Assembly: GCF_000003605.2 (NCBI RefSeq)
Contig: NW_003138322.1
Span: 222,916-252,198 of the forward strand
Source of the DNA: Saccoglossus kowalevskii
Lineage: Eukaryota > Hemichordata > Enteropneusta > Harrimaniidae
DNA length: 29,283 nucleotides
Reading direction: 5' to 3'
Below the pieces are notes generated by a model. It ran no database searches. It saw only the letters and a list, made by a program, of their open reading frames with translations, and was not told where the DNA came from. This document shows positions 725-28,110 of this stretch, one piece after another. Made by a program: the position numbers and the translations under genes. Numbering within the stretch: position 1 is the stretch's first letter; each line of letters begins with the position of its first letter.

Positions 725-830
725 TTAGTCAAATGCTTCTAAAATGTCCAAATACTCACAGAATAGAGTAATACAATTAGGTAAATATTCTGCAGCCCCT
801 TCTCTATCCATATATACACACACAATTCTA
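725..830 (-). CDS. Terminal coding exon with stop codon
   Basis: The acceptor AAATATCTGCAG precedes 830. One leftover base and 34 codons follow, then TAA at 725-727. The peptide includes MDREGAAEYLPNCITLF and ends EYLDILEAFD. The incoming phase (one base) matches the preceding exon if that exon ends at 910 with two spare bases. A good donor-like GTGAGT lies inside at about 753-758, so a variant splicing further downstream is possible. I prefer read-through to the stop because the following polyadenylation signal is well placed and no downstream exon fits the spliced phase. No known domain was recognised. Confidence 0.68.
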
Positions 831-909
831 CTGCAGATATTTTCATTTCCAAATGCATTATTATTATTTATTGTGCTAAAATACAGTTTCCTCACTTCTC
901 TAGGTACAC

Positions 910-1021
910 TTGTATACCAGGGTTTGGACTTCATGAAGGCTTAGATGCCCAATGATGCCTTTGTAGTGTTTGCCTCCAAATGGCATAGCTACAGGAATAT
1001 TGTTCCTCAGAAATTCAAACC
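910..1021 (-). CDS. Internal coding exon near the C-terminus
   Basis: The acceptor TATATATAGCAG precedes 1021. The exon runs 2+108+2 bases and encodes a peptide containing RNNIPVAMPFGGKHYKGIIG and HLSLHEVQTLVY. The donor after 910 is AA|GTGTAC. An alternative donor, CTG|GTATAC, lies 8 bases earlier in the exon but would break phase with the terminal exon. The 79-nt intron to 830 is short but plausible. The upstream junction is odd: the intron to 1064 would be only 42 nt and the phases disagree by one base. The peptide itself looks strongly protein-like. Confidence 0.68.
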
Positions 1022-1063
1022 CTGCTATATATATTACTGGTACATATATTATCTAAATCTCAC

Positions 1064-1124
1064 CTCATCCTCGCTGTCATCATCACTAATGAGTAGGTCA
1101 GCACTCAAGTCATGGGCTTGTGTT
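1064..1124 (-). CDS. Acidic coding exon (DDDSEDE)
   Basis: This has nearly ideal splice signals: a long pyrimidine tract ending TTTTATTTTGTAG before 1124, and GAG|GTGAGA after 1064. Only one frame is open (1+60 bases). It encodes TQAHDLSADLLISDDDSEDE, a serine/acidic stretch of the kind phosphorylated by casein kinase 2 in other proteins, though that is only an inference here. The incoming phase matches the exon at 1185-1215 across a 60-nt intron. The outgoing phase (0) does not match the next exon, which starts with two spare bases. Confidence 0.72.
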
Positions 1125-1184
1125 CTACAAAATAAAAAGAAAACATCATATGATAGTATACAAGCTTTTTTGCATGCAATATAC

Positions 1185-1215
1185 CGGGGTACAGAATCAG
1201 CAGTTGTATGGCTGC
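1185..1215 (-). CDS. Small internal coding exon
   Basis: The acceptor GAGTTGCTCAG precedes 1215 and the donor CCCCG|GTATAT follows 1185. The 31-bp exon reads 2+27+2 and encodes SHTTADSVP plus shared codons at both ends. It receives one base from the exon at 1901-1991 and gives two to the exon at 1064-1124, so it restores the frame between two stronger exons. Its small size means it would be easy to propose by chance; the double phase match is the main support. Confidence 0.5.
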
Positions 1216-1818
1216 CTGAGCAACTCTTTATGTGACAACCAAATCCTGAAACTGGTTACGCATTTTTTTTCTTCTAGAAATCACAATTTGTATATGCCAT
1301 ATTGATAGTCCTGAACAGCATCATCATTTCGATGGAAAAATCTTCAGTTTTAAAATTAGTTCTTGTCTCCAGATACATGTAGATAAACTAGTAAACCAGA
1401 AATTTGAAATTTGTTTTGATTAAGAACCAATAAAAATTATTGTACAATTACATTTTCATGTGGATAACCAGTTTTTCCAGAGTGGTTGTATGTTTTTTAA
1501 TTTCAACCTATTTATATTTGAGAATACCTGTAAGTACCCATATATGTACATAGCATATTCACAGGTGAACATTCAGACAATAAACATCATGTATACATGT
1601 ATACCATTCCCTTTGTCAAAACGTATTATGATGTAGACAGATTTTATACATCAAACCGTCAATAAAAGCTATTTTCGGTTTACATGTGTATGTGAACTAT
1701 GGACAGTACTGTTATGTATAACACAATTTAGTTTAAAAAGCTGAATGACAAAATTATAAAATATTTCCAAAAACAAGTTGAATCAGAACAGAAGAAAATC
1801 AATGGATCACAAGAACAT

Positions 1819-1880
1819 TTCAACAACAGCAATAACAACATTAACACCACCACCACCACCAACAACAACAACAACCTCCT
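1819..1880. repeat. Triplet microsatellite (AAC)n/(ACC)n
   Basis: Imperfect runs of AAC, then CAC, then AAC. It begins about 20 bp inside the intron that follows the exon ending at 1901. On the gene strand it reads GTT/GGT repeats, which extend an open frame of leucine and valine codons that is not real coding sequence. Confidence 0.9.
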
Positions 1881-1900
1881 CCTTATCTCACTGTTCTTAC

Positions 1901-1991
1901 CCACTCTGATAAGTAATGGTTTATTCCAAAAGTTGGCCTCCTCATAGAAATGAAACAGTGGAACATGTAAAATTACCTGGAATAGCAATTT
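1901..1991 (-). CDS. Internal coding exon
   Basis: The acceptor ATACTATTTATTCAG precedes 1991 and the strong donor GTGG|GTAAGA follows 1901. The 91-bp exon starts in phase 0 and ends with one spare base. It encodes a hydrophobic-aromatic peptide including LFQVILHVPLFHFYEEANFW and NKPLLIRV. An apparent 36-nt intron inside it (GTAATT...GAG at 1976-1941) is unnecessary because the frame stays open through it. A CAA/CAC triplet repeat begins just inside the following intron. Confidence 0.68.
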
Positions 1992-2634
1992 CTGAATAAA
2001 TAGTATTTACAGGACAAACAACATCGGGATTCACACTGATCATATACTTGGAAAGAGCTGATAATGCAGATTACAGCACCATTAATTCAAACAGCAGACA
2101 TACTTGGACACAACAAGCCAATTGAAAAGAAGAAATGGCATACGATAACAAAGTCTATGTTCACAAACCCCTGCCATTATTGAAACGCAAGCAAGCGGAA
2201 CAAGGCATATTTTACTCTAATAACAGTGGACCAGGCCAATAGTAACGGCACTAAAACAACAAACGATAAAGTGCGGTCAGAGAACAATCACTATGGAATG
2301 GCGTTGGTTTCAGCTGATCTACATCACCGAAAAGACACATGTTTCGTTCACGTGTGCATAGCTATAACTACACCCATGAATAGAGGCGCCACTCTTGACC
2401 GATCAGCTAAATACGTTCTAAAGTTGGTCAATAGAAATTTGTAAACACAGGTAAACAAATTGAGTGTCAGATAAACACAGGTAAGGTTAGCCAACTATTT
2501 AACAATTGATTGGGGATGTTAACCCACCAAAAGTGGGGAAAGTAGTATAGATAAAGTGGATAAGAATGTGGACATGTTGACTAGTAACCTAGTAAATTAT
2601 GGCTTCCATTAAGGGGTTGACCCATAAGAAACTT

Positions 2635-2650
2635 GGGGGGGGGGGGGGGG
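2635..2650 (+). repeat. Poly-G run (16 G)
   Basis: Uninterrupted G homopolymer in an intron. Such runs can form G-quadruplexes and are prone to length error in assemblies. Confidence 0.95.
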
Positions 2651-3644
2651 TCCACAGGTAAACAAAATGACAAAAATTTATATAAAAAGAAAATCTTACT
2701 CAAAACTTACTGAGAGAAGAAATAAAATAATTTACACAGATTTTGCACAATCTCCTCTCCCGCAAATTATAATGGTTTAAAACATAGTCGGCAGAAATGC
2801 CTGAACAGGAACAAAATTGAACTAAAATTTAATCATCACCTTTTCAACCATACTATTTAGTTAATTAATTACAATTCAATTTTCCCTTTCAAAATTTGGA
2901 TTCCTGTTACAGCATAATTTTTTTTTAAATACATACAATAGCACAGATATTGGTGAACATCACTGTAAATGTAGCGATTAAAAGGTGAAGACATTGGACT
3001 TCCATAACATACCCACACTAATCATGCACAGATCAGCGAGTCTGTGCAAGGTATTGTGTTAAACACAATTGACTATTTTTACACCACGAAATACCAGAAA
3101 AAGTCTGTGTTTGACTTTGTTAATATTATAATCATTTTGTTTCTTCAGCTAACATTATCCTTTGACTAAATACTTTACTTTCATTGAATGTTCTGGGGCC
3201 ACACCATGACATATTAATTCACCTATATTATAATTGATCACCATTGGTCTCAAAACATTCACTGTTTCAGAAAATCAGCAGTGCACCAAAACATTTCTCA
3301 ACCGGCAATTTGAGCACTGGGATATTTCTGCTAGATTCATATAATACCGGGTGGTCTCTTCATTAACAGTGTTTAGATAGGACAAGGATTTGCTAGGATT
3401 GTACTACTTTAAAGCACAGACATATGGGTGACATACTGGAAACTTTATACTCAGTTGGTATGCATTTATTGGTTGTAGCAACTAAACAAACACTGTACTT
3501 GATCCTTTCCTAAGAAAGGTACTTTACTTTTAATACATATATATATATGGAGACAAGATGTTAACCACAATCTATCGGTAGTATTTAAAGAATTAGAAAT
3601 TACCAGTTATTGCTGAAATGCTGAGACATTGGTGTGAGTAAAAA

Positions 3645-3656
3645 GGGGGGGGGGGG
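3645..3656 (+). repeat. Poly-G run (12 G)
   Basis: Uninterrupted G homopolymer preceded by AAAA and followed by TGTGTAAAAGGGGG. It is in the same intron as the longer run at 2635-2650. Confidence 0.95.
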
Positions 3657-3859
3657 TGTGTAAAAGGGGGAATCAAGGAAGTAAGGGAAAATTGGCGCAG
3701 GGGTTTGGGCGAAGAAAGCCTTTGGCTCAAGTGAGAATCAGTGCACCCTCTGTAGTCCATTTGATGAACTGTACGCAATTCATTACACTAATTCACTGAC
3801 ATGTCATTGACACAAAAGAAAATAGTACATTGATATAGTGGTCTTGAAAAACATCTTAC

Positions 3860-3900
3860 GAAAGTTACATAATTAGTGACTTGGAAAAACAAAATCCATC
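3860..3900 (-). CDS. Small internal coding exon
   Basis: The acceptor CTGTCTTCTAACAG before 3900 is preceded by a long CTAT/CTGT pyrimidine tract formed by a microsatellite. The donor TTTC|GTAAGA follows 3860. Only the frame with two leading bases is open (2+39). It encodes WILFFQVTNYVTF, a hydrophobic segment. It takes one base from the exon at 4360-4404 (joint codon GGA) and leaves phase 0, matching the exon at 1901-1991. Confidence 0.63.
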
Positions 3901-3907
3901 CTGTTAG

Positions 3908-3944
3908 AAGACAGACAGACAGATAAATCGATAGATAGATAGAT
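3908..3944. repeat. GACA/GATA microsatellite serving as a polypyrimidine tract
   Basis: Tandem AGAC and AGAT units. On the gene strand these read CTGT/CTAT repeats ending a few bases before the acceptor of the exon starting at 3900, so the repeat forms the pyrimidine tract of that splice site. Confidence 0.85.
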
Positions 3945-4359
3945 TTACATGTCAAATCGGAACTGTTTTTATCTTTGATAACAATAAATCTAATCTACCT
4001 ACATCAGACATTCCAAAATTCAGGTATCAACTTATAAACAATAATTATAATGAATTAAATTTGTCAGCTAAATTAACTCAAAGATTGAGTTTAAATCAAT
4101 TGAGGAAATCAGTGAACACTGCGCTTCCACAAGATGGTTATCACATAGAATGTGACCTCAGTGGCTCCGTACTCCACTGAAAGCTCAAATGTCTACATTG
4201 GACATTCTCTGCGCACATATGCCACCTTTCATGCTTTTTTTATATTTATTTACCAATTTCCCATCATTTTGTCCAGGGAATGTGGTTGCCATGACAACCA
4301 AAATCAATCTGCACGCAATTATTTCCAATTCATTGGTTTTGAGAGCGGGAAAACATTAC

Positions 4360-4404
4360 CTGTGAAACCTGCAATTAAATCAAGGTAGTCCATAACAAAG
4401 TGGT
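4360..4404 (-). CDS. Small internal coding exon
   Basis: The acceptor AGTGCTAGTCAG precedes 4404 and the donor CACAG|GTAATG follows 4360. The 45-bp exon reads 2+42+1 and encodes HFVMDYLDLIAGFT. The other two frames contain stops. A second AG four bases further upstream (GTGCTAG) would lengthen the exon by four bases and change its phase. Phase supports the CAG site: one base comes from the exon at 4921-4945 and one base passes to the exon at 3860-3900. Confidence 0.6.
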
Positions 4405-4920
4405 CTGACTAGCACTATTTTTCTTCTCATTAAAAAATACATCAATTTGATGTCCACACGCAAATATCAGAACCACAAGGCTTCCATTAGCACCTTCATT
4501 ATAGCTTACTACATTAAAGCCATTCTGTTATTGACAGAGTTTTTAAATTTCAATGAGTGCTGATTTGAAATAGAAGATTTAATATAACGAAGCAAAAACC
4601 TACAAAGAGTATCGATAATAGATTGCCAGCATGGAAATCTTCTGCGAGGGCTGCTTGTAATACAACAAACACACACACATTTTGGTTTCAGTTTAAAACA
4701 CGCTTCCTGTCGGGATGTATCGTCAACCGTGTGATCTTGACGTCATACAACCAGAGGGAGAACGCAAGTAGTTCTGATTTATTCTGAATAATCACAAAAG
4801 CTATTCATCAAATTCAGCATAGATTGGAAAGCAATTTTCCCTTCTCCTATTTATATCTATTTTTAGGCTCTTTTCTCACACAAAAGAGCTCTTCAAAATG
4901 CATAGCAATGTAATACTTAC

Positions 4921-4945
4921 AACTCAACTTTACAACAGGCAACAC
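4921..4945 (-). CDS. Candidate micro-exon (25 bp)
   Basis: The acceptor ATTATATAG is weak in pyrimidines. The donor GAGTT|GTAAGTAT is strong. In phase 0 it encodes VLPVVKLS with one spare base, linking the exon at 7900-7945 (ends phase 0) to the one at 4360-4404 (needs one base). A second frame is also open (VACCKVE) but does not fit the neighbours. The donor and phase fit are good, but at this length chance cannot be excluded. Confidence 0.45.
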
Positions 4946-5066
4946 CTATATAATTATTTATATGAGCATTACCTATAGTCTAAACCAAAAATCCTGATTT
5001 TATAGCTACCAGGGATGAATCAATTTATAAAAAAAAAAAAAAAACTACAAATCACATTTTCTGCCC

Positions 5067-5345
5067 GACTTTAAAAGCCGATGGCTGTCACGCCACATAT
5101 GCACAACATATATATGAACAAAGATGGCGACTTTAACTGTTGCGCAGAACAACAAGTACAAATATGTTACCAAGCTTTAACAATTAAGGTGGTTGGAAGG
5201 TATCGAAGAGTCACGGGTGGTAATTCGTTCTTGTCGTACCCAGCTCAAAACTCGTACTTGTGATTTCCTTTAGAAGAGTGCATTGAATTGTGGGAAAATT
5301 AATGTTTATCAACACAAATGTTGTACATGTGTGGCACGGCAACCA
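5067..5345. repeat. Dispersed repeat family R1, copy 1 (decayed)
   Basis: Matches 8670-8955 over most of its length. Shared blocks, in the same order, include TTACCAAGCTTTAA, GGAAGGTATCGAA, AAAACTCGTACT and ATGTTTATCA followed by ACAAATG. This copy carries TG/CA where the other has CG (for example TGTACATGTGTGGC against CGCACATGCGCGGT), as expected of an older, deaminated copy. No terminal repeats or poly-A tail are obvious, so the class is unknown. Confidence 0.75.
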
Positions 5346-5722
5346 TCAACCTTTAAAACAAGGCTTCTTCTATTTTCTGAGTTCTAATTTCCATGTCTCC
5401 ATTTGTGAAAGTTCATGTTATGAATTTACATCACTTTGTGAGATGGCTGACATGTATTAGGATTTGGAAGCTAACAATTTAATTATTATCTTGATTTCCA
5501 TGGCAACAATTAATGGTATTATTTGTTTTACAATTGTCCTTTGAGTGGCTATCATTTTTCCTGCCAAAATCTTAGATATTTTTTTTTAAATTTCAATAAT
5601 TTTTTTTTTGAAATCAGCATTTTTAAAACGATTATGTAGGTTCATTTTGTGAAATAAGACATTGGGGTTCTAGGTCAATGTTGTCTGCAGATATTGAAAT
5701 GCAACTGTCCTAGCGATCCTGT

Positions 5723-5768
5723 GATTTGATTTGATTTGAGTTGATTTGATTTGATTTGAGTTGATTTG
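5723..5768. repeat. Pentanucleotide microsatellite (GATTT)n/(GAGTT)n
   Basis: GATTT units interspersed with GAGTT units in two blocks, in the intron between the exons at 7900 and 4945. Confidence 0.85.
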
Positions 5769-6464
5769 GGAAGAAAAACAAATGTTTCATATTTTAAATT
5801 CAAAGACAACTAATCAATCTTGTGGTGGTGACTAATGCCGTCTGAAGAAACTTTCAACACTCATCTCAAAAGAATTATGTAAATACATTTTTACTAACAA
5901 ATGGTAAATATTTTGGTAGTTTGGGACATGAGTTTAACATGTGTTGAATGCCGGTCTTAGTGATAGATCATTGCAAGACATTCTTATATACAGTTACAGT
6001 ATATAAACAGTAAATGCCTTCTCAACAGTACCAAGATTATTTATTTTCATTCCAGAAAGAAATAAAAATGTTTACAGTTACCGAGAACTGAACAATTTTC
6101 ATTCTCAGATTCTAAATGCAATGGCTCGTGGAGATGGATTAAAACAACACAATTTATCAGTCATTATTTTGACTTCTAGCTATCATGGCAACTGGCCTCT
6201 ATTGACTTAGGTACCATATTGTCCAAGTCACAACTACAATCAGAGAGTTGGATCAGCTGCTACTAAGTCTGTATGTGAGGTTGGTGCGACATTGTTCACA
6301 CACATGTTTACAGACATACTTGTCTGTGTAATTTTTTTACCCCCTACACTTATTCTCAAAACTGTTAAACTTATATTATGCTGATGTAAAATAGAGTTAC
6401 CGTAGTTCAGGTGTATATGAAAGTATAAAGTAATAAAGTAACAATGTTACCAAGGGAAGTCATA

Positions 6465-6612
6465 TGCATAACCATAATCCATTGTGGGTAAATAATAATT
6501 GCAAGGATTTCACCACCTGGGGTTGAGGCTACAAAGCATAGATTGTGGATGCATTGTGGATAATTACTAGAATCTTTCCACCCAGGGTTGCGGCTACTAA
6601 GCATGGATTTCA
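6465..6612. repeat. Imperfect tandem duplication of about 70 bp
   Basis: Two adjacent diverged units share ATTGTGG, GGATAATTA/ATAATAATT, the CCACC-GGGTTG block and GGCTAC-AAGCAT-GATT. The first ends near 6540 and the second near 6612. Non-coding. Confidence 0.6.
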
Positions 6613-7899
6613 GATTTGTTTATTCTTTTCAACTTATAAAAGATCTTTCAAGTTTACTCAAAAACAATCTCGGTAGGTATCAACTTTCTGCTACTTTTCA
6701 CGGTCATGTTAAAGGTGCCTGTTATTTCTCAGGATAATTTGACAAATTTACTTTCATTTTACAAATTTGGATTTTACCTATGCTTAAAAACATTTGAATC
6801 CATACTATACAAAATCAAGAATTCTGTCAGCAATTTAAATATACAGATCACTGCAGAAAGGTAAACACTTTGATAGCTTCCTGCAATGCAATATGTCTAA
6901 GACACACACCGCCATGCAGGAGATCCGAGAGTAATCAGCGACAAGGCAAAATATAGAGATACATCAAGTAACCTAGAATCACCTTTGATTAGCCTACACT
7001 TCAGGCAAACAATCAAGACCAATGACACTAATAACTTGGAAACCATATCAAGATTTTTAAACACACATAGCCTGGCAAGATACTGTATTGGTTCGATGCA
7101 CCACTGCTTTACTAACGGTGTGTAAAGGACTAGATTTCCTACTAGACTACGCTTCACTGCTTGGAATGATCATTTTATTTTTATTGATATGCTTCAGTGG
7201 GCTCATATTTCATTTAATACTTTAATTCTATTTGTATATATTATAGCTAATTAGACTGCACTATAGGTAATTAAGTACACAATTCAGTGAGGTTTTTTTT
7301 AATGAAGATGACACTCTGAATTCAACCTTAAGATTGAGTTGTAGGTTCATACATCTTCTTACAAATCCATTATAATTATATTGCAGTAGTACATTAAGTT
7401 TATTTATATAGTTTTCAATCCTTCTTTGCTATGAATATCCGGATTTTTCACATTGATGGCGCTTTAATTTCTAGTGCCAGAATGAGGCTGGGATTTAGTC
7501 GACATCTCAAAAAAACATGCAATTGTTCATTGCTATGGTGATAACTATTTGTCAAAGATGCAAAATGTTTGGCAAATTGTGGTTATTATTTTGTTGTCTA
7601 AGTTTCCAAAAAGCTACTTTTTCATTTCAAGAACTTATCAGCAGTCTAGTAGACCTTACAGAATTGTCCGTACAATTGTCAAAATGAATAGCCTATACTA
7701 CTATTCAGTTAGTGGGACATGTGATCAGCATTGTATGGCATATTTATTGCACAGATAAGCATTACATGCCATATTCATCAGCTAATAGACTGTAATTTTT
7801 ATAGCTACTGAAAACTGGATAGTTTTGTATATTATCTTTATTACTCTGTGTGTACCATTGTATAATGTAACATGTAAGTAGTATCAGTGCATCCATTAC

Positions 7900-7945
7900 C
7901 TGAAATGTACCTATGGCATTATCAATCAATTCAAAATATAACTGG
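7900..7945 (-). CDS. Small internal coding exon
   Basis: The acceptor ATTATTTGCAG precedes 7945 and the donor TTTCAG|GTAATG follows 7900. The 46-bp exon reads 1+45 and encodes QLYFELIDNAIGTFQ. It ends in phase 0, matching the candidate exon at 4921-4945. It needs two bases from upstream, which the weak candidate at 10948-10967 would supply. The codon pattern and both splice sites are convincing even without the neighbours. Confidence 0.68.
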
Positions 7946-8369
7946 CTGCAAATAATAGCCAATGTTTTGTTTTCAGCTTTTTTTTTTGTAAACTACCATG
8001 ATCAAAAGGTACATAAATTATAATGTAATCAAAATTACTCTTCTTTGGTAACTATGATTGGTTTCCATGGCAACCACAGTGTACAATGTTTCCAAGGTAA
8101 ACAGCTTATGCATGGCTGTAGCAACCATTATTTCCGCATACCAACGGGTGCCATGGCTACATTCCATGAACAATGCAGAATGATAAGACACGCACAGCTG
8201 GGAATATACATTTTCTTTGAAAACAAGTTTGTAAAACAAGTCCTGTCATGAAAGAGTCCCTCTTGTTCAATAGTAAACAAAACTGAATTACGGTATGTCA
8301 GCCATTTTAAATGAGAACAAATAACAAAATTTGACTCCAATCTGAAATTAATTTATCAAGGTCCCATCA

Positions 8370-8600
8370 TGTTCAATGTATGTACCAAAGCTTGAATGAT
8401 AGTTGTCCCTGTATGACCGAGATCCAAGTACTGAAATTCTTGATTTTAATGCATTTGGCCATCTTGAATCAGATCATGAAACAAGCACATGTCTTTCAAG
8501 ATGTATGTGCATAATTTGAAAACTACGTCTGCAGGCATGTCCCAAGATACAGATGGTTGTGTATGAAAATGCATGCATACAGACACATGCACACAGAGGT
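8370..8600. repeat. Dispersed repeat family R3, copy 1
   Basis: Contains GGCCATCTTGAATCAGATCATGAAA and, downstream, CAAGATGTATG and CCCAAGATACAGATG. The same blocks occur in the same order at 16040-16240, and a short third fragment lies at 15812-15875. Diverged copies of an unclassified element. Confidence 0.6.
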
Positions 8601-8669
8601 CAATTTAGAAGTTTTCATTTTGGTCTGGTTCACTCATTGGGAAGCCATTTTGTTGATACACATAAACAA

Positions 8670-8955
8670 CTTAAAGGGCGGTAGTCGTAGCGCTGCACAT
8701 GCACGAGATATGGATCGCGATTATGATTGTAGCCCGCACCAACTTGAACAACTTGAGAGGTTACCAAGCTTTAATTAAGTACTTTATTTTGATGTTTGGA
8801 AGGTATCGAAAGAGTCGCCAGCGGTAATTAGTGCAAGTGACGCCTAGGGCAAAACTCGTACTCGCGATTTCATTAGAAAAGCGCATTGGATTATGGGAAA
8901 GCAATGTTTATCAAAACAAATGTCGCACATGCGCGGTGCGAGGACTATCACCTTG
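8670..8955. repeat. Dispersed repeat family R1, copy 2 (CpG-rich)
   Basis: Homologous to 5067-5345 in the same orientation. It is richer in CpG (GGTATCGAAAGAGTCGCC, CTCGTACTCGCG, GTCGCACATGCGCGGTGCG) and so looks like the younger copy. No coding potential survives across the repeat. Confidence 0.75.
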
Positions 8956-9182
8956 TAAGAAGAACAATCTACTTCTGCACTGGAGAAGATCAGTACTCTA
9001 TTATGATAAATAGATAAATAGGTTTTTGTAATGAGATGGAATAATAGTGATTCTAAGTATGTAAATAATTTGAAATCGTCCAAAAAAATTGTTTCTAGCA
9101 ATAATTGGATTACCTAATTGCGAGTTGTATTAAGTTACATAGCAGATGAGATATGAATAAAACTCGACGAGACACAAAGTAC

Positions 9183-9193
9183 GGGGGGGGGGG
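9183..9193 (+). repeat. Poly-G run (11 G)
   Basis: Uninterrupted G homopolymer inside an intron. Confidence 0.95.
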
Positions 9194-9883
9194 AGCAATG
9201 CCAATTGATGGTACTGATATCAATGTGGTCAGTATGAATAGAGCTATTTCATAATTATATAGTCAATCAACATATTATTGTAATATCTGAAGATAGTAAG
9301 TTTACACAAGGTAGTTTAATATTCATCGTTGCTCAAGGCAGACTGTGTCTCAATGTAAATTCTGACAGGAATTACAAATTATTGATTTTTTTTGTATAAA
9401 ATTGATTTTATTTCTCTCACTAGCATACTAACTGGTTAAAATGTCTGGGTGCATGAAGAATACATCAAAACTGTTGGAGGACAAGAGGCTATATTTTCTA
9501 GTGTTGTCAATGAATTAAAACCATTGTAAAAATTAAATTTGATGGTAAGTAGGTCAATTTCTTAAAATGAAAAATGAGGTTATGAAGAAACAGATGTCTG
9601 TGAATAAAGAGTAAACGCTCTGTGAAATATTCATAAATTTATAATACAGTTTATCCCGATTTTACCAAACAATTTCTACATCAATTGCTTATTACCACGA
9701 TTATCAATTGTATAAGTGATTGTACATATGTTCAGTGACCTGATTTTATTTAATATGTACATGTGGTTTGTAGCGGTTTCTATAATCTATGAAAATGCTA
9801 CATATTTTTTCCCCCATAAAAGATCAGTAATCGTAATACTTTCTGACATATTACATTAATCTACTGTACAGACGTACCTACCG

Positions 9884-9897
<14 letters not shown>

Positions 9898-9935
<38 letters not shown>
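9898..9935. repeat. TA dinucleotide microsatellite
   Basis: About 18 uninterrupted TA units within an intron. Confidence 0.95.
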
Positions 9936-9937
<2 letters not shown>

Positions 9938-10947
9938 TATTTTTAATTTTAATTGTTTTATGCTTGTTATATAGAAATGATTTTAGAAATAATTTTATGA
10001 AAGAGAAAGTTATGTCATGACATGACACAGTCCCACATTGTTCAAATACCTGCCAGTCAGACAATTTTAATTTGATCTGAAAAAAATTATTTACTTGAAG
10101 TCACATCTATACTACGTCTCAAAGAACAGAGCTCCAAGTAATAACAGACACCAAGCATTGAAGCAAGTAATTAATCCTTTTTACCTGGCTTGATCAATAC
10201 TAATGTATTAGTGACCAAAGAACTGCTTTTTAGATTTTTGTCAATAATATTGATCAGTTTAGCAAGATGTTGGCACTTAGAAGCGTAACAAGCGCATGAA
10301 ACAGAAAAAGTTTCTTTATATGATTTATTTTTCTCCTACAGGTGTTTTATTTCACATGGTTTACAGCCATGACACACAAAGATAACACTGTCTTTAATAT
10401 TTATCTTCCAGTGATTTACAAGACATGTAACAACCAACGTATTCATTTGTATGTTCTTAGTGTTGTATCATTCATGATTGAAGCTCAAACATTTTGCATT
10501 ATTTACATTGTTTTCTCATCTGTGACATGGTAATCTGGTATTTTTACTGCACACTGCACCCAACACAGAAGAAACTGTTAGTGACCACCTCTATACAAGG
10601 ACCACTTGCCTATAATGACCAATTTCAGGCAACATATAGCAACACACACACACACAGTCAGAATGCCGTGAATATTTTAAAGCATGACTTCATGTATACG
10701 GTATAAGATTAGGACACCTGCAGCTAAATGCTTTACTTTGCAAGACGGTAATCTCTCAGTTAAAGAATCTCATCACTTACGGCCCTATCACCATGGAAAT
10801 ACATCTTATCACCATGGAAATAATACCAAATGATGAGCTACAATCTTCAGTTTACTCTGACAACTTCTCCAGGGTAAAGACGTTTGTTATCATTAATTAT
10901 TAATAAAATAGCATCCACCTAGCACCTTGTGCTGATTTCCACTACAC

Positions 10948-10967
10948 CTTCTTATAGAATTTAACAT
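10948..10967 (-). CDS. Weak candidate micro-exon (20 bp)
   Basis: The acceptor TTTCTATGAGCCACAG precedes 10967 and a weak donor GAAG|GTGTAG follows 10948. In phase 0 it encodes MLNSIR and leaves two bases, exactly what is needed between the exon at 11984-12012 (ends phase 0) and the one at 7900-7945 (needs two bases). A different undetected exon with length 3n+2 could serve equally well, so this is a placeholder more than a firm call. Confidence 0.25.
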
Positions 10968-16240: not shown

Positions 16241-16358
16241 TTGTGTTTTCAGACTTTGTCTGAACGGGAACTAAAACAAAATTATGTTATACGTGCAATA
16301 TATAACACACCCAGGAAGCAGGTCTATTTTGTAAAACCATTTAATTTCACTATTTTGA

Positions 16359-17079: not shown

Positions 17080-17091
17080 CCCCCCCCCCCC
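17080..17091 (+). repeat. Poly-C run (12 C)
   Basis: Uninterrupted C homopolymer, followed by TTCTCTTCC. Confidence 0.95.
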
Positions 17092-18502
17092 TTCTCTTCC
17101 TAATACAGGTTATAAATTTGATGATTCATGGATCACCCAACTGAGACATTCAGGATATTTTTACTTATCATACTAAACACCTTTTAATAGAATGAGACAA
17201 TTCAACAACAAACATGTTTGCAACGGAAATGGTGAATTTCCAGCAATCTGAAAGTTTTTACCAAATCAAACAACAGATTATGGTACTATTCAAATTATTG
17301 TATGAAACAAGCCAAAAAAAATAATAAATAAATACTCATAAATATAAATAATCAACATTAATTTGTTTATCTCTATTTGATATTGTGAAAGATTTTTGCC
17401 TATAGATGAATGAGCCAAGATGGTACAAATAGATGGGTTGTTAACAGGCAGTGTTTTCTATAGACAGACAGACTGCGATACAAGATGACAAGTAGTGGCT
17501 ATCAGCAGTCAGGGCTTAGTGGTAAGATTTACTCTAGGATAGCAAAAGAGATTGAAGTAGCTACATTGTATATATTCACTAGTGGCCAGTTAAATCAACT
17601 TCCAGCATACTGTAGCAGTTTTATCAGCATCAAGACAAGCATGAAATCAAAAGACATGCACAGAATAACCAAACAGACCATTAAGGGGCGGAACAACTAT
17701 TATTGGAGCAGGGTGTCTGCTTCTCTGCATTATAAGGATTTACTGCATAATGAAAGTAATTCTGACTGATTCAAGAGAGATTAAAAACAGATTTGAAATA
17801 AATATATATTTCATACACGCTTTTGATATACTCTTTAATATATAATTACGCGATATTTGAAGTATGTATTTTATCACAAGGTAGTTATGGAATCATTAAG
17901 ATTAAAGAGTTTTCATATTTTGTTTGTTTGTGCCATATTAGAAAATTCTGGGACATTTTTCATGGTAACTGATATCAAAACACATTGTGACCATATTTTC
18001 AAGTTTATAGTTTGGGGTCTATTGCGACCTAAGGCAATAAGACACGTCACTGACGCACATAGATTTTTCGCAATGTAGTAAGTTACGCTCAATCTGTGGT
18101 ATGTCATTGACTCTATGGCCACAATGCATTTTGATAAAACTGTCAAGTGAGAAATATTCTTTCCGCAGTGCAATTGATATACACAGGGTGTGAATAAAAA
18201 ATCAACTTGGAATTGCCCCCAGTGAATAGTTTGAAGATGACAGCAGTGATCTAATTTGATAAGGCGACTAATATTCAGTCTTCTTATGAGCCATCACAAC
18301 CTAGGTAATTGAATTGACCAGACTGTGATCGTATCTCTTCGTCCCTCTTATCCCCCGACAGGAGAAAGAAACACATCAATAAAAACATTGCTAATAAATA
18401 ATTTAGCACTAAGGTGATACACACACAAATACATTAATTTCATATGTAATTGTATTTAGCAGTAGTCTTAGACTGTGTGCTTATGATACTCTAGGGAATT
18501 AA

Positions 18503-18546
18503 CCCCCACCCCCCCACCCCCCACCCCCACCCCCCCACCACCACCA
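18503..18546. repeat. C-rich simple repeat (CCCCCAC)n
   Basis: Runs of five to seven C separated by CA or A, ending in CACCACCACCAC. G-quadruplex potential on the minus strand. Confidence 0.9.
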
Positions 18547-19100
18547 CATTGACATAAAATGTTAATTTCAATTCCATGTATTCATGCATGACTGATGATG
18601 TGAATCGTGATCTGGAACCAAGGAGTCGTGATCTAAAGCATTAATCAATTTTCGTAGATGGATTTTTTTTTCTCGGTTTAATAATACATCATTATAAGTG
18701 AGTTTTAATATTTCAAATCTACCGGCAGGTTGAAATCTCTTTGTTTAGGCTAAGCAGCGAGTAAAATGGTAATCTATCTTTACACCTAAACCAGCCCTAA
18801 ACACTGCATTTGATAAAATATCAATTATATAATGTTATTTTATGAGCATTCATCTACAGAATGATGCAACACAACCTAACACAATCTAGTGAAACACTAA
18901 ATACCAGGTAATATAAATCATTGATGTAAACAGTTCAAAGATCAATACATAGCTAATAATAAATTGAGTAATTTTAAATACAGCTGGAAAGCTCACTAGA
19001 CTATTTAATTGAATATACACCAAGTTACCATACTCATCAAATTTAGCGCCCATGGGTATCATTGCGTCTCAGAGAGATGGGAGCTGAACTTAGCCGAGCA

Positions 19101-19194
19101 CTCACCCACCCACTGACCCAAACACCCACCCTATAAATCCACCCACCCTATAAACCCCCTCACCCAACCCTCGAAACCCACCCACGAATGCGAA
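19101..19194. repeat. CCCACC-rich degenerate minisatellite
   Basis: Repeated ACCCACC motifs with two CACCCACCCTATAAA-type units and related sequence. Non-coding. Confidence 0.8.
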
Positions 19195-19727
19195 TGACAA
19201 TTTTAGTTCACCATGTGCCAGAAAATAAAATTGCGAAATTAATTGCATCATCATTAATTTCTACAACTCAAAATAAGCACATTTCAATATTAATTATGCA
19301 CCACCAGAATTACAAGGTTAAAAGGTATTAGGGTCTGAGGAAACACATTATAAGAATTTTTATCATTGTCAAGTGAGTTTGATCACACACAAACTCTTCT
19401 CTCTTGACCAGATAGGTCTGATCTGCTAAAAAACAATCAGAATGCTGTTTTGTACATGTACTAACAAAATTCTCTGGGAATTCCCACAGTCATCCTGGCA
19501 TTGCAATGCAAAAGTGAGTTCTCTATGTCGAAGTATAATCAATTCCGATAAAAAAAGGGGCATTTGGAAAAGTCGAATAATGATCAAAGAGCATGTTTTT
19601 ATGACAAGACAGTCCAATTTGGGGCATTTTGGAAGGGATGGACGCTTAGCCAAACATGAAATATCCTAAAAGTGGGGCCTAGGCACTTGAACAAGTATGT
19701 TAAAACTATTTAATATTTATTTGTTGG

Positions 19728-19875
19728 TGCTTTGAGCAATTTCACTGGATTTTAGGAAAGCAAATGTAGTACGGACAAAGAGTTCTATTGTTATTTCACA
19801 TGTTCATGCGATTTTAATTTACCTGATTTTACTTCTCAACAAAAATAGCAAAATTAATAAACCAGTGAATAATAA
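19728..19875. repeat. MITE-like element, copy 2
   Basis: Starts CTTTGAGCAATTTCACTGGA and ends AATAAACCAGTGAATAATAA. Same orientation and same internal blocks as 16359-16505, with substitutions and small indels. Confidence 0.6.
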
Positions 19876-20118
19876 ATGTATTTTACAGTACATGTGTACA
19901 TGGAGGAATAAACGTCAGACAAGAACACTATAAACACAGAATAGCTTTACACGAGAATGAAAAAACACAATTATAAAGCAAAGAATCTAATACTTGTACT
20001 AGAGCAAGCAACTTTTTTTATACCAATATCCTTTTTTTACAAAATCATCGATCATAGTACACTGGAAAATGTCAGGATACCTGGAAGGACGATTTGAAGA
20101 CATACTACAGCTACTTAC

Positions 20119-20230
20119 GTTTGGGAAATCCTGATTAATGTATATGTAAGCACACACAGGATGAGCAGATTGACTATTCAACTGTGTGATGATGTGACGG
20201 TGATTAAGACGGAAGGCAGGTACTCGTGCA
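20119..20230 (-). CDS. Internal coding exon
   Basis: The acceptor TTATTATTATGTATTTAG precedes 20230 and a consensus donor CCAAAC|GTAAGTAG follows 20119. The 112-bp exon reads 1+111 and encodes ARVPAFRLNHRHIITQLNSQ followed by SAHPVCAYIYINQDFPN. It needs two bases from upstream, supplied by the exon at 23923-24048 (joint codon CAT), and ends in phase 0 as the exon at 15766-15806 requires. One of the best-supported exons here. The product family is not recognised. Confidence 0.82.
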
Positions 20231-20978
20231 CTAAATACATAATAATAATTTATCATTTTTGATTTGATGAAATATAACATTTAATAGATAATGAGTTTTG
20301 ATTTCTTTTAAATTAGGCAGCAATTGTCAGAAATTGTAAATCCATGTGTGTGAAAGAAGGCATTGAAGTGACACAGCTTCCATTATTACTTTTTCAAAGT
20401 GATTTCTCACGAGGTGAACACCAGACATCCCAAAGAAAAGAGTGGATTATGTGTAAAAGAAAAACAACGTCATGCAGTTGCAGATGAAAGAAATGACTTA
20501 TTCAAATATATCAATTAGAGTAATTGTTAGTATGATGGTTGATTACATTAGTAGATACAATTCTTGGTATGACGAAAGATACAAGATTTATTTCTTTATT
20601 ATCTATTATGACAGACAGATATGATACAAACTGGAGAAAGATTACTTAAGCATTTTTAGGGGAGTGTTGTGTTGAATGTGATTGGTCAAGAGATGTTAGA
20701 GATGAGGCTCTAGAAGTTGGGGATGCATCAAGGACACAAGTCCAAATGTGTTATGCCCATGCAAGACTGAGTTCCGGAATGGTAGATTTGCTGAATTTTG
20801 ATGAAACTTGAAATGAATAATGAAACATGTACGTATGTTATTATGTGACCTATTTGTGAAGTTGAATGTAATTGACTAAATATGTCTGAATTACAGGTTC
20901 AGATTGACGGACGCACACACACTGGCGGGCAGACAGATGCATAGATGAACAGATAATCATAAGTTTTATTAACATACG

Positions 20979-21029
20979 AACAAACAAACACACAAACAAA
21001 CACACAAACAAACAAACAAACAAACAAAC
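20979..21029. repeat. AAAC/ACAC microsatellite
   Basis: CAAA tetranucleotides interrupted twice by CACA. The open frame of Val-Cys-Leu-Phe repeats on the minus strand is a by-product. Confidence 0.9.
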
Positions 21030-21603
21030 GGATAAATCAAATCTAATGTTCAACAGAGTTGCAAGTACATGTACCAGTAAGCTTATCTTTCTATTAATAC
21101 ATTATGAGCTAGTATATACCTGGTAAAGCACTAGTCAGCCTTAAGGATTCATGTCCAATCATTGTCTGAAGCCACAGCACATCACTTTTTTTTATTTCAA
21201 AGATCAGTGCTCTCTAGGGCAAGATGGATCATCAAATATGACCACAAACACTTTTTCAAGTCATTTCAAATTGATGCTGTTAAATTGACTCCGCGGTGCA
21301 TGCAATTAGTTCTACATTTTAATACTCTGCAGAAGATATGCCTGCTGTACAAGTCTATTCAATGCGTGTTTTCTAGCATGTCATAACAATGGCCACATAT
21401 CAACACTAATTTTCACAGGGACAAAGAAACAGCAGGGTAGCTGGCGAAGCCCTACCAGTATGCCTGTTCCCTGTCTGTAAAATTCTCTGGGTATTAATAG
21501 CTTTGGCACAATCTCTTTATTAATCTTCCATTTATTGATACACTGTAATATATCATTCTAGCTGCAATCAAAATCTAACAAGTAACTGCCTTATTTATAA
21601 ACA

Positions 21604-21614
21604 CCCCCCCCCCC
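21604..21614 (+). repeat. Poly-C run (11 C)
   Basis: Uninterrupted C homopolymer followed by TCCCC. Confidence 0.95.
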
Positions 21615-22984
21615 TCCCCATGCACTAGTAGGTGGGGGATACCATACAAAATAACATAATTCCAATCACAAATCATGCCATTTGGCAAGACCTTAACCTG
21701 TATATTTTACAATTCCAATTTATTTATTTTCAAATTACAAAGTGACACAGAAATTTGTGCAAATTATAATGACACCAAAATGTCACATGAACAAATTAGT
21801 TTCGATATCATGTTTTTTTTTTAATATCTTAATAATCCACTATGAATCGTTCTCACCTTGACCTCAGAAAAGTGCACGTATTACATATATAATATGTCCA
21901 GGCACCAAAGCATGTGCATTGGGTTACCGATTCCCTATAATTATACATAGTTTTTTATTTCAATCATGCTATTTAGCTACAGATTGAAGAACAACAACTC
22001 GTTAGTGTTTCAGAATTATAAGTTTGTATGTGTGTATACTGTGAACCGCTTTAATTTTTTGAGAGACATAATTTTGCAAATTTCTTGAGTCATTGAAAAT
22101 CATTAATTTATTGGTAGTGACTTCTATGACACAGTGTCAATAAATTTAACAAATTTTTTTCTCATTATTGCCATAAAATCCTGAACTAGTGGAAATTTCT
22201 AGCAGTGAAAAATTAAACGAAAGTGGACGAATGAATTAACGAACATTGCATCAAAAGTGTCATCATAATTTGGTTTCTACATTTTCTCACTTTATTTTTT
22301 GGAAATTTCACAAGCTCCAGTAAAAAACATCATGTATAATTGCAGAACAGACTTGTATCAGAACTGAAACATTTATGCTTTCTTGAAAATATACAACAGT
22401 CCAATTCCAGTTTTTTTTTTTAAATTCCCTTTTTTTTTTGCATTCTTCCACACCACTAGTTACTTAAATAGTTAGTTTGGCACAACCGGAAAACTGGAAT
22501 TCAGGTTAAGCTACATAAATTATGTTGGTTGCCATGGAAACACTTGGTGAGGGCGCCCTTCAAACAAATTAAAGCCCTTGTTTACTCATCCTGAGCTGTT
22601 GAACAATGCATCGGTTAAATTCAACGGAATGAGGAAATATTCTATCTTTATATTATCTGGGAAATCAACACTAAAACCTGGCATAACAATCTACCACAAA
22701 ATATTTACGCTGAACAAGCTTTAAACTGCCGTTTGTTTGCAATTCTAAACAAGCAGCCTATCGGCTGAGATAGCTCCGCTGTTAGCAATGCACATTTCAA
22801 TTAAAGAACAGAAGATATCATTAGAAAATGAACTATGTGTATAGTATCAATGCAATGGGACTTGCTGTTTTTAACAAGAATTCAAAAATATAATTTTTAA
22901 CCATAAATGACAATGACAAAAATATTCACCAAAATTAGAGAATTAAAGATATCATTACAAAATGAACAAATCTGAGAGAGGTCT

Positions 22985-23100
22985 ACCCAAGGTACATATA
23001 CACCAAGTATCAAAGCATTCAGGCTTGTAGTTTTCAAGAAGAAGTCGAAAAAGTAAAACATTGACACGGACGACGAAGGACAATCACTCAAAGTCGACAG
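22985..23100. repeat. Dispersed repeat family R4, fullest copy
   Basis: Contains CCAAGGTACATATACACCAAGTATCAAAGC, TTTTCAAGAAGAAG and GACACGGACGACGAAGGAC. Fragments recur at 11483-11567 and 25751-25787. The GACGACGA-type end resembles repeats common in marine invertebrate genomes, but I cannot name the family. Confidence 0.55.
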
Positions 23101-23613
23101 CGGAGCTAAAAAGTGCATAACACTGACACGAACTATTAAATAAAACATGGCCATATGAATGAGCAACCAACTAGAACTCAGATGTGGACGAGTTAAAAGA
23201 CAATTATTTCGGGAGGTGTAAACACTGCCACGTTTGGTATTTAATTTTGCAACAAAACAAACACGTCCGTTCTATTCTTATAAATCTTAAAATCTCAAAT
23301 ACTTGCTGGAAATGTGTTTGGTGTAGACTTTTACAGGTGAACCAAGTGATAAGTGTTAAAGCAGCCATAAAAGGATCATTGTAGAATAAGATTAATGATT
23401 GTATTCTTCTCATTTATCATAGTTACACTTTTACATGTACATGCCAATTTATTCTAAACAGTAAAAATACTGCAATGCATTTAATTTGTCGCTACTACAT
23501 GTCCTAATTTTTACTGTATGTTAAGTCAACTGCTTCTGTGGGGACGAAATTTCTTGATAACCACCATTACTTAAAGATAGCAATGAAAAGTCCACTGATG
23601 TATTTCATTTCAG

Positions 23614-23675
23614 GCCAAAATTCTAGTATCACAGGTAATCGTGAAGACATAGGAATGTGACGAGTCAGAAAATTT
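23614..23675. repeat. 62-bp direct repeat, copy 1
   Basis: GCCAAAATTCTAGTATCACAGGTAATCG...GACGAGTCAGAAAATT matches 25002-25062 with only a few differences: C/T at two sites and one G/A or indel. The two lie 1.39 kb apart, either side of a coding exon and the minisatellite. Confidence 0.85.
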
Positions 23676-23778
23676 TGTTTTTCCCAGACTCGGGAAATTC
23701 ATGAAAATCACCGAAATATAACTGTTTACAGAACGTTTGCAGCAAGAATATGACACATGAAAATAAACCCTGGTAAAA

Positions 23779-23798
23779 TGGATGGATGGATGGATGGA
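23779..23798. repeat. ATGG tetranucleotide microsatellite
   Basis: Five GATG/TGGA units in an intron. Confidence 0.85.
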
Positions 23799-23922
23799 GG
23801 CAATTAATCCAATCACAGTATATATTAGATCTAATTCTGACTGTTAGAGACTGCTTGACAATACCTACAGTAAAATCTAACCCCTCAGGCTGCCAAATAA
23901 TGAAACCTTAACACATACATAC

Positions 23923-24048
23923 TGGTAAACGAGTACAAACGAGAGATTTAGTACCCCTAGACCAACTACTCTGAGGCAAGCTGCATTATGGTAAATCTCT
24001 GTCATAGCGAAGAAATCTGCTGAAGATGTTGGTAATCCAATGAAACAC
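23923..24048 (-). CDS. Internal coding exon
   Basis: The acceptor GACTAGCCCTAG precedes 24048 and a repeated-GTAT donor TTTACCA|GTATGTATG follows 23923. The 126-bp exon reads 1+123+2. It encodes CFIGLPTSSADFFAMTEIYH then NAACLRVVGLGVLNLSFVLV. The upstream exon leaves two bases (joint TTG) and the downstream exon takes two (joint CAT). The second half is hydrophobic. An internal acceptor (CATCTTCAG) would shorten it without breaking the open frame. Confidence 0.74.
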
Positions 24049-24597
24049 CTAGGGCTAGTCATATTTGATTGGAAAGCGTGGATGTTGAAAGTTTAATGAT
24101 AAAAGCAACCCTGGGGGGTAAGGGATGCAGATTGCAGAGATTTCACTATCACCATTATGTTGTCTGGATTTGTCAAATTGTTGATTCACAAATAGCACAT
24201 CGAGATGATATTTTTATACACAGCGTTAAGGGGGGTTAAATATTAATAATTTTTATTTCTGAAAATAAAATCCTTTCTAGATGTGGATAATAAAGTATGG
24301 AAAGTTCTTATAATTTCATACAATCATAAATCAAAACATTTTCTGCTGACTCATTTCCATGACAACAATTTTATTTTATTATTATCTCCCCACCCCCAAC
24401 AATAGGCTAATCTTTCCACAATAAAGGAATTCCTCAGAAATTTGATGATTTAGTTGAAAACTTGGTGAAAATTTCTGTTCATTTAACTCTTTGCAAACAT
24501 GTATTAATTACAGCAGTTATACTTTTATCATTAACGATTTTATAATTGTGGCAAACGCTATCACATTTTAATTGTGTCCAAGTTTTTGAACTATAAT

Positions 24598-24854
24598 ACC
24601 AGGATATGTGACCCTTAGGAGTCAGAAAGGACCAGGATGTGTGACCTTTAGGAGTCACATAGAACCAGGATGTGTGACCCTTAGGAGTCAGAAAGTACCA
24701 GGATGTGTGACCTTTAGGAGTCACATAGAACCAGGATGTGTGACCCTTAGGAGTCAGAATATACCAGGATGTGTGACCTTTAGGAGTCACATAGAACCAG
24801 GATGTGTGACCCTTAGGAGTCAGAATATACCAGAATGAGTAACCTTTTTGTTAA
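24598..24854. repeat. 33-bp minisatellite with 66-bp higher-order unit
   Basis: Seven full units plus one degenerate unit of about 33 bp, each starting ACCAGGATGTGTGACC. Two variants strictly alternate: A has CCCTTAGGAGTCAG and B has CTTTAGGAGTCACATAGA, so the true period is 66 bp. Because 33 is a multiple of 3, frames on both strands stay open and give periodic peptides such as TPKGHTSW. No splice sites or host context suggest it is translated. B units contain the hairpin TGTGAC-8nt-GTCACA. Confidence 0.9.
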
Positions 24855-25001
24855 CCTATCAAATTTGACAGGGATAAATTCAGCAGTAATAAGAAAATTG
24901 TGTAGTGGTGAAGAAGTTACTTTGGGTTTTACGGAAGGAGTCACAGAGACTTCCACTGAATTCAGTCATTAGGAAAACCTCAAATAGCAAAATTTCTGGC
25001 A

Positions 25002-25062
25002 GCCAAAATTCTAGTATCACAGGTAATTGTGAAGACATAGAAATGTGATGAGTCAGAAAATT
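25002..25062. repeat. 62-bp direct repeat, copy 2
   Basis: Near-identical partner of 23614-23675, same orientation. Confidence 0.85.
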
Positions 25063-25252
25063 ACAGATTTAATACGTTTCAATAGAGGTGTAAGGATTCG
25101 TATTTACAACATTTTTTTTTATTATATTCAGAAGCCCCAAAAACTTTAGAGCCACAATATGATTACTCGTTTAGAATACAGAGACCTATATTGTAAAATT
25201 TTAGGGGTCAAATAAGTGGGGACTTTCAACACATTGGTTAGATTCACTTTAC

Positions 25253-25462
25253 AAAATACCACCACTTGTATGTCTAATGGAAAAGGTCACGACGCGTTTA
25301 CAAAAAAAAGCACTTAAGTCAATTTGGCTGCTCTTATGTAATAAATGAAATGTGCTTTTCAATGGAGTTGCTTTGTCACAGAGTGGATGGGAGGAAATAT
25401 GTGGATATTGTTTATCATCATTCATTCGACAAGTTAATACAAGTTGAGAGAATTTAGCTTCA
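25253..25462 (-). CDS. Long internal coding exon
   Basis: The best acceptor in the window, TTGTCAGTTCTTTTCTTCAG, precedes 25462. The donor TATTTT|GTAAAG follows 25253. The 210-bp exon reads 1+207+2 and encodes EAKFSQLVLTCRMNDDKQYP and onward to KRVVTFSIRHTSGGI. Phase matches on both sides: TA from the exon at 26160-26200 makes TAT, and TT passes on to make TTG. A donor in GTG|GTATTT is an alternative end. No named domain was recognised. Confidence 0.78.
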
Positions 25463-26159
25463 CTGAAGAAAAGAACTGACAACAATATTAATAATATTTA
25501 GTTATTTGTAAAATGAATGATAAATGTCTTTAATGCATCCCCTTTAACTATCATTTCTAAGCTTTCAATATAGATCTAAACGTGCTGTCAACTGAAAAGC
25601 ATTGACAGAATGAATGACATACCATGCAATCAATACATAACCCTCAAATACAGTGTAAAAACATGTAGGTTGCATTTCTTGAGATTGCTCATGATCAGTA
25701 AGCAATACAATATTAATATTCCCTGCTCATATTCGCTCTATCAGAAATTTATCCACCCAGCAGTTTTCAAGAAGAGGTTGAAAAAATATTATCATTTGAT
25801 AACAATATTCACTAAACACTGAATTTTATATATTTATAACAATTAATTAGGTAAATTACAGGGATTTTTCTATGGTAAAAATAAGTAATATTTTAATAAT
25901 TTAGTAAAAAGCCATTGCAATTTTCTATTTATTTCTTTTTATTTATTTCTATACCATATTTAATAGAGTTAATAAGGTATATAGAATTATAGGAATCTCC
26001 TTGAAATAAACAAATCTACCAAAAGTATATATATAATACACACCAAAAATCAGAATGATCATCCCAGTGGCTTAGAAAATCAGGACGACACTGAACAACA
26101 TTGGGTCACAAAAGTTCATAGGCATGATGGGAAATTGAGGTATCCTTCTAGTATAGCAC
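25463..26159 (-). other. Intron
   Basis: AT-rich non-coding sequence with a short R4-like fragment at 25751-25787 (ATCCACCCAGCAGTTTTCAAGAAGAGG) and no further exon. Confidence 0.55.
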
Positions 26160-26200
26160 TAGTTGATGAACCGAATCCTCAAGTCATAGCCATTAGCTGC
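26160..26200 (-). CDS. Small internal coding exon
   Basis: The acceptor GCATTGTTAAATTATATCAG precedes 26200 and a modest donor AACTA|GTGCTA follows 26160. The 41-bp exon starts in phase 0, leaves two bases and encodes AANGYDLRIRFIN. It fits the long exon at 25462, which needs two bases (joint TAT). The upstream phase fits the tentative exon at 28033-28110. The weak donor lowers confidence. Confidence 0.48.
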
Positions 26201-28032
26201 CTGATATAATTTAACAATGCAACAAGCAGTGGATACAGATTTATTACGGATATCGATAGGAGATTGTCTCGGGGCATGCAAGTTAAATATGCCACTACCT
26301 ATCATGCACAATTATCTGATAAAACGGAAAAACTCATTAGATCCTTTCAAATAGAAATCCTGGGGGAAGGGGAATTTGACAATTAATGTACGAGAATTAC
26401 TTTCAAAGATATTAGTCGGTAAATCATAGGTGCTCGTCCTTGTAGAATTTTTTTAAATATTGAACAGTAAAACAAATGAAGGTTGAACACATGGGGCCTA
26501 AATGTTTGTATCTGAACTAAGCGATGCGCAACACTGCATATGCAACGGGTTACGCAGATAAAACAACAGTGAGATAAACAGACAGTCTATCAACTACAGG
26601 TATGACAGAATATCTTCACACACTCCAAGAAGCAAAGTGCAAGTAGTTCCTTACTCATAAATTTCTGATACAAGTACAGGCGACATGATGGATCACACGA
26701 ACACCTAAGGAACACAGCTACATATGTCTGATATAAGGCGAAAAAAAAAGAAGATATATTGCGAGTTTTCTATCACAACTAATGATACATATACTAGGGG
26801 GGGCTTACTAAAGACTTGGATTATTCCAATTGAAATTGGGTGAGGGGGGAGAACAGGAGGAGGAATTAGTTCCCGACAGGTGTCTGTGTCGGAGCACTAC
26901 AAAATTTGTAATTTCATCATTCAGGAAAACTAAATAACGATGGCTACTAAAAGATTTAACACTGACTGTTAATTGTGATTGATCAAATGCCCAAGATATT
27001 AGAGTAATGCATATTTACAACTTACACAAGCATATGTAGTAATACTGCACACAAATGCTATTACTAACAATAATATCTCTCATCTACTAATCCATTTATT
27101 TAATATCCTAGTCAGTCAGTTGCCAGTCATTTCCACAAGAGACATATAAATTACAGTAATACTATTAAAAGTAGGTACTGACAATGCATACTATATCAGA
27201 GCATAAGCAAACACATAGCGTATTGTAAAAAGCCAGGTTTACATGGTTTTAATGTAGACTGGCGTTCAAATCACCATCAATGCCTATATCAGTTTAATGT
27301 TCAGCTAATCTCAATACGCAACTGCTGAAATAGGACATCAAGCAGCAATTAGTGATACTTGCTATGAAAGCAATCTTGAATACAGATATTATCTCAAATT
27401 GAAAAGATATGACTGTATTCATCAGACTGGTAAAATATAATTTTTGACCAAATATGAAAAAAATATTGACTAATAAATACCAAAATAAACTGTGGGAAAT
27501 GCCTTGAAATCAACAACCTAAGAAATAAAGTGAAAATTCAGTGAAAATTTGTCAAAATGTGGAAATATTTGCACTGAATTTGGGCGGGAAAATATCTGCC
27601 ACTCAAAGTTTTATTCATGTAAGTTTAATTGCCATGCATTAGCTGCATGCTATAATTATGTCTTAGTTGCCCACTGACTATCGAGGTGAGCACCAATAGA
27701 TGATTTTCAGTTTCAATACAAGATCTTGCATATTGCATGAAAGGCGCAGAATGAATGTATACTGCGAAAATCAAACAATTGATTTTGAATTTCTGCAGCT
27801 CAATGTTGAAATGTCGTTCTTAAAAAAATATTGCGTCAAGATACCCTTACTTCATCAAAATTGACTATCATCAAATGTATATACGGTAGCAAATTATAAT
27901 TCATGGATATGCCCTCCAAAATACTTCAGATAAAGATATTCCTCCAAAATAATGTTTCGATGCAACTATGAGGCTATGACCTTTGTTTGTCCTGTTTTTA
28001 TATTTGACTTCATGAATCTCGGGGGATCTCAC
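26201..28032 (-). other. Intron or unresolved region
   Basis: AT-rich, with a G-rich patch near 26798-26850. No repeat family was recognised. A continuous minus-strand frame runs on from the exon at 28033-28110 down to about 27901, so part of this stretch may be coding if a different donor is used. Confidence 0.45.
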
Positions 28033-28110
28033 GGAGAACAGAAAATAGTCAATTTCAGTTGTCTTTAGAGATGGGGTACCCAGTGAAACTGACATCCAGG
28101 CTAAGAACAA
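28033..28110 (-). CDS. Tentative most-upstream coding exon
   Basis: The acceptor ACTAGACCCAAAACAG (poor pyrimidine tract) precedes 28110 and the donor TTCTCC|GTGAGA follows 28033. The 78-bp exon is open in phase 0 at both ends and encodes LFLAWMSVSLGTPSLKTTEI then DYFLFS. The frame stays open past the donor for another 43 codons (including SVRSPEIHEVKYKNRTNKGH), so the exon may be longer. Phase agrees with the exon at 26160-26200 for this donor. Confidence 0.4.

Follow-up and report, generated by a model that had tools for sequence, protein, structure and literature searches.

The window analysed here, 29,283 nucleotides (nt) of Saccoglossus kowalevskii DNA (contig C2951, 513,484 nt long, positions 222916-252198; G+C approximately 28-36%), is probably mostly intron, with one probable 61-base exon of an AF4/FMR2 gene on its minus strand. 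Conventional open reading frame (ORF) scanning shows only scraps, as a first-pass annotation had stated: there are 14 ORFs of at least 80 amino acids, and the longest without N has 111. The same annotation had proposed an animal split gene on the minus strand, a placement that our analysis supports, with the exon best placed in an AF4/FMR2 gene. What emerges is a small, probable AFF exon that ORF scanning would overlook, separated by tens of kilobases from the other exons recognised in the gene.

A probable 61-nt exon in the window

Our exon score adds acceptor, donor and codon usage terms, with matrices and a codon model drawn from general knowledge and untrained on the host genome. On this scale a 61-nt minus-strand block scores 23.3, with 20 shuffles of the window reaching at most 17.0. 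A block as good (at least 23.2) appeared in 1 of 200 simulated windows, the maximum being 27.6. The block contains the acidic DDDSEDE patch that had already been singled out, and the patch does lie in an open minus-strand coding block after a good acceptor. The features at and around it, in window coordinates, are:

1125..29283, minus strand: probable intron, or upstream flank of the AFF gene; no Pfam match above the curated cut-off in six frames, and minus-strand exon scores at chance level
1125..1144, minus strand: acceptor with pyrimidine tract gttttctttttattttgtag, score 4.6
1064..1124, minus strand: probable internal coding exon TQAHDLSADLLISDDDSEDE, 61 nt, splice-plus-coding score 23.3, carrying the DDDSEDE patch
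1058..1063, minus strand: donor gtgaga (GAG/gtgaga), score 6.9
1049..1051, minus strand: TAA read earlier as the stop of the gene (VRFR, then stop), 6 bases past the donor and presumably intronic
1..1063, minus strand: putative start of the downstream intron, approximately 6 kb to a candidate bridging exon outside the window

Read from 1124 to 1064, the block opens with a single base that completes a split codon, and ends at a codon boundary; because it starts inside a codon, further upstream exons are needed. The donor of 6.9 ahead of the TAA indicates that the block is probably internal and not terminal, and the earlier placement of the acidic patch near a C terminus fails for the same reason, the strong donor (GAG/gtgaga) coming before the stop. 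Among minus-strand blocks that exclude this exon, the highest score is 9.2, inside the shuffle range. Real exons of the AFF gene score down to 8.3, so weak exons may be overlooked in the window.

A six-frame translation of the window, with stops written as X and 12 of 12 frame halves covered, gave no Pfam match above the curated cut-off; the best E value, 0.0096, belonged to a Colipase-like family on the plus strand (16.5 bits against a cut-off of 27). The three minus-strand frames (6 of 6 frame halves) gave no credible match in the PDB, the best E value being 0.91, and Rfam and tRNA scans of the window returned no match. The peptide of the 61-nt exon alone matched nothing in Pfam or the PDB.

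An AF4/FMR2 gene downstream of the window

An AFF (AF4/FMR2) gene lies approximately 43-56 kb downstream of the window on the same strand, with the following features in contig coordinates:

180282-180126, minus strand: serine- and acid-rich exon (SDE-like), high exon score
179363-178074, minus strand: 1290-nt exon starting RKWCLAPFF, score 110
173159-169363, minus strand: stretch of exons with high exon scores

Two joined downstream exons match AFF4_CHD (PF18876) at 2.6e-23, and single exons match it at 2e-14 and 1.3e-12. The AFF4 chains 6kn5, 6k7p and 6r80 of the PDB match the two joined exons at 3.9e-19 to 4.5e-19. Searching the 572-Mb genome with PF18876, with five candidates scored, yielded four matches above the cut-off, all on contig C2951 and on the same strand, which cover profile positions 12-88, 102-151, 150-228 and 224-261 in order. 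By sequence homology, the downstream gene is an AF4/FMR2 member with the C-terminal homology domain present, and the family is biologically well known. No second AFF gene was seen in the PF18876 search of the genome; only the best candidates were scored, so this is no proof that the gene is single.

Joining the window exon to the AFF gene

The serine-rich exon requires two preceding bases, and the window exon ends at a codon boundary. Joined directly in DNA, the two are out of frame and run into stops, and a direct join of their peptides gives no AF-4 match; both direct joins were rejected. Between them lies a bridging candidate:

217942-217890 (contig), minus strand: candidate bridging exon, 53 nt, score 14.7, good splice sites

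It is the best of six listed phase-compatible candidates in approximately 44 kb, and by itself it matches no family. Window exon, bridge and downstream sequence stay open through all four exons, with no stop. Cut at 112 residues, the join matches Pfam AF-4 (PF05110) at 7.9e-8, with 32.5 bits against a cut-off of 26.9; the alignment runs from residue 5 and covers profile positions 414-492, in the pSER part. Without the window exon the AF-4 score is 23.6 bits, and a 520-residue join scores 21.8 bits, below the cut-off of 26.9. When the window exon was scrambled nine times, the AF-4 scores were 26.7, 25.1, 23.9, 29.8, 24.0, 25.0, 26.1, 23.7 and 26.3 bits; none reached 32.5 bits and one passed the cut-off. 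With scrambles spanning 23.7-29.8 bits against 32.5 for the real order, part of the AF-4 gain is due to composition and the rest to residue order.

On these sequence comparisons, the window very probably belongs to a single long minus-strand gene of the AF4/FMR2 (AFF, lilliputian-type) family; the window contains one recognisable exon, the rest probably being intron. We infer that the join of window exon, bridge and serine-rich exon is used in the mRNA.

A chain of small exons within the range of chance

The first-pass annotation had assembled approximately 22 small exons into a product of about 530 residues. We judged this chain as a whole; of the claimed exons, the DDDSEDE block alone was tested singly. 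Under permissive rules (YAG..GTR borders, open, 45-180 nt, matching phases, introns no shorter than 60 nt), the longest chain comprised 120 blocks on the minus strand, 113 on the plus strand and 117 in the reversed sequence; 20 dinucleotide shuffles gave 97-122. When GTRAG donors were required, the longest chains were 19 on the minus strand, 15 on the plus strand and 8-23 in 20 shuffles, a length of 19 being reached in 1 of the 20. The minus-strand chain length is thus at the high end of the chance range, and within it. AATAAA is frequent, with 51 copies on the minus strand and 45 on the plus strand; as the plus strand and the shuffles also chain alike, phase chaining and a nearby AATAAA are almost uninformative. 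The polyadenylation-type signal cited earlier is present, at 872 and downstream of the block, but with 51 copies on that strand it carries almost no weight as evidence.

The proposal of some 22 exons and 530 residues is not supported, since the plus strand and the shuffles yield equally long chains, and we reject an uncharacterised gene family of that size, its exon chain being no better than chance. Nor is the family unrecognisable, as had been suggested: the exon is best placed in the AF4/FMR2 gene, the rest of whose recognised exons are downstream, outside the window. The earlier observation amounts to open blocks chained by chance around a single probable exon, which comes from an ordinary and known gene family. 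This corrects a likely mis-annotation, in which chance open blocks would have yielded a false orphan protein.

The N-terminal part of the gene

Neither pattern searches nor tblastn located the N-terminal homology domain (P-TEFb binding) or the ALF region (ELL binding) in contig 162916-382198. Patterns for N-terminal AFF exons gave none in contig 162916-352198 or in 352199-382198, and none was recognised by coding score upstream to contig 382198. In tblastn, queries from the N terminus and the ALF region of human AFF4 found nothing convincing, the best E value for the N-terminal homology domain (NHD) being 2.0. Genome-wide searches with PF05110 and with an AFF4 N terminus were empty, and had no working control. 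From the window exon to a GLYR1-like gene approximately 148 kb upstream, nothing was recognisable as an N-terminal AFF exon. Within the window, minus-strand candidates scoring 5-11.4 have the phase needed upstream of the 61-nt exon; the eight listed score 6.6-11.4. It is very unlikely that the N terminus of this gene is divergent or truncated, lacking recognisable P-TEFb- and ELL-binding parts while keeping the DLXLS-SDE-NKW (MED26/SL1-type) and C-terminal parts.

Alternative readings

The 61-nt block could come from another gene, or be a chance open block, that merely lies upstream of the AFF gene. Its 20-residue acidic peptide holds little information, 1 of 200 simulated windows contains a block as good, and scrambles recover part of the Pfam score; yet its strand is that of the AFF gene, the order is right, the join is phase-compatible, and the real join has the best of ten Pfam scores. 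A DLXLS-like motif, admittedly sought with a post hoc pattern, also occurs once in 219,283 bases as against 1 in 40 simulated sets, and we regard an unrelated block as unlikely. A minor but real possibility is that at least one further, weakly scoring N-terminal AFF exon inside the window was missed. Neither the Pfam AF-4 profile, which has no match in the six window frames, nor tblastn with the N-terminal and ALF parts of human AFF4 (no convincing hit; best E value 2.0, for the NHD) points to one, even though the gene needs upstream exons for a block that starts within a codon, genuine exons can have scores of only 8.3, and window candidates of the needed phase exist.

A complete split gene of approximately 22 small exons inside the window, encoding a conserved, uncharacterised protein of some 530 residues, is extremely improbable. 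The window does contain open blocks bordered by AG and GT whose phases chain, and weak real exons occur in the host genome (score 8.3), but equal chains form on the plus strand and in shuffles; the six frames have no family match and the minus-strand frames no PDB match with E below 0.9; and the exon claimed to be the last has a strong donor and fits the downstream AFF gene. Our preferred reading remains that of one probable AFF exon in a mostly intronic window.

Motifs and putative function

PMC6339877 describes three conserved motifs in the AF4 pSER domain: DLXLS, which binds MED26, SDE, which binds SL1, and NKW, which is needed for transactivation. Tests of SDE and NKW are reported in PMC4673504, and the DLXLS consensus is given as LXXDLXLS in PMC8387021. 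Compared by eye with LXXDLXLS as stated there, LSADLLIS in the window exon is a near match, with one fixed position off (I for L). LSADLLIS and DDDSEDE in the window exon are followed, in the next exons, by an S/D/E-rich stretch and then RKW; the start of the 1290-nt exon, RKWCLAPFF, has R for N relative to NKW, a comparison made by eye only. A regular expression for DLXLS plus an acidic stretch, composed after the exon had been seen, matched once in 219,283 bases translated in six frames, and once in 40 simulated sets of equal size.

In the AFF gene, the window exon would encode the start of the pSER region, with its DLXLS-like motif and then an acidic stretch. Downstream would follow the 53-nt bridge, the SDE-like exon, the NKW-like 1290-nt exon and the exons of the C-terminal homology domain. 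Human AFF4 acts as a scaffold protein in the transcription machinery of RNA polymerase II, and its C-terminal domain mediates dimer formation. By homology to the human proteins, the product may serve as a scaffold for the super elongation complex, with the DLXLS-like motif as a possible binding site for MED26 of Mediator, the SDE motif as one for SL1, and the C-terminal domain expected to form dimers.

Repeats and neighbouring sequences

Window positions 12976-13042 and 13644-13710 hold a pair of 67-nt inverted terminal repeats (94% complementary), flanked by a 9-bp direct repeat GTCTGCCAA (12965-12973 and 13713-13721), with 279 N (13070-13348) inside the element. The segment 12965-13721 is a probable non-autonomous DNA transposon, and we take the 9-bp repeat to suggest a Mutator-like element. 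A tandem array at 24598-24847 (period 33/66, approximately 7 copies) accounts for a 103-amino-acid minus-strand ORF at 24479-24790. Pairs of dispersed repeats with 72-95% identity (5206-5356/8810-8958, 16332-16476/19701-19843 and 23614-23674/25002-25062) are likely remnants of interspersed elements. Beyond the window, minus-strand ORFs at contig positions ~371936-381200, on the strand of the AFF gene, resemble the dehydrogenase part of GLYR1/NPAC, and a plus-strand stretch at ~296522-296911 resembles a pogo/Tigger-type transposase fragment.

Comparison with known systems

With the AF4/FMR2 family (human AFF1/AF4 and AFF4/AF5Q31, fly lilliputian; PF05110, PF18876) the gene shares the C-terminal homology domain and, in the same order, the serine- and acid-rich region and the DLXLS-like motif. 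It differs in that DLXLS reads DLLIS and NKW reads RKW, and in that the N-terminal homology domain and ALF region of the family were not found. The EAF family (EAF1) also has DLXLS and SDE, according to the relevant section of PMC8387021, and DLXLS-like and acidic serine-rich stretches occur here too; in that same account EAF proteins are without NKW, whereas the gene described here has an NKW-like start to its 1290-nt exon and an AFF4-type C-terminal domain.
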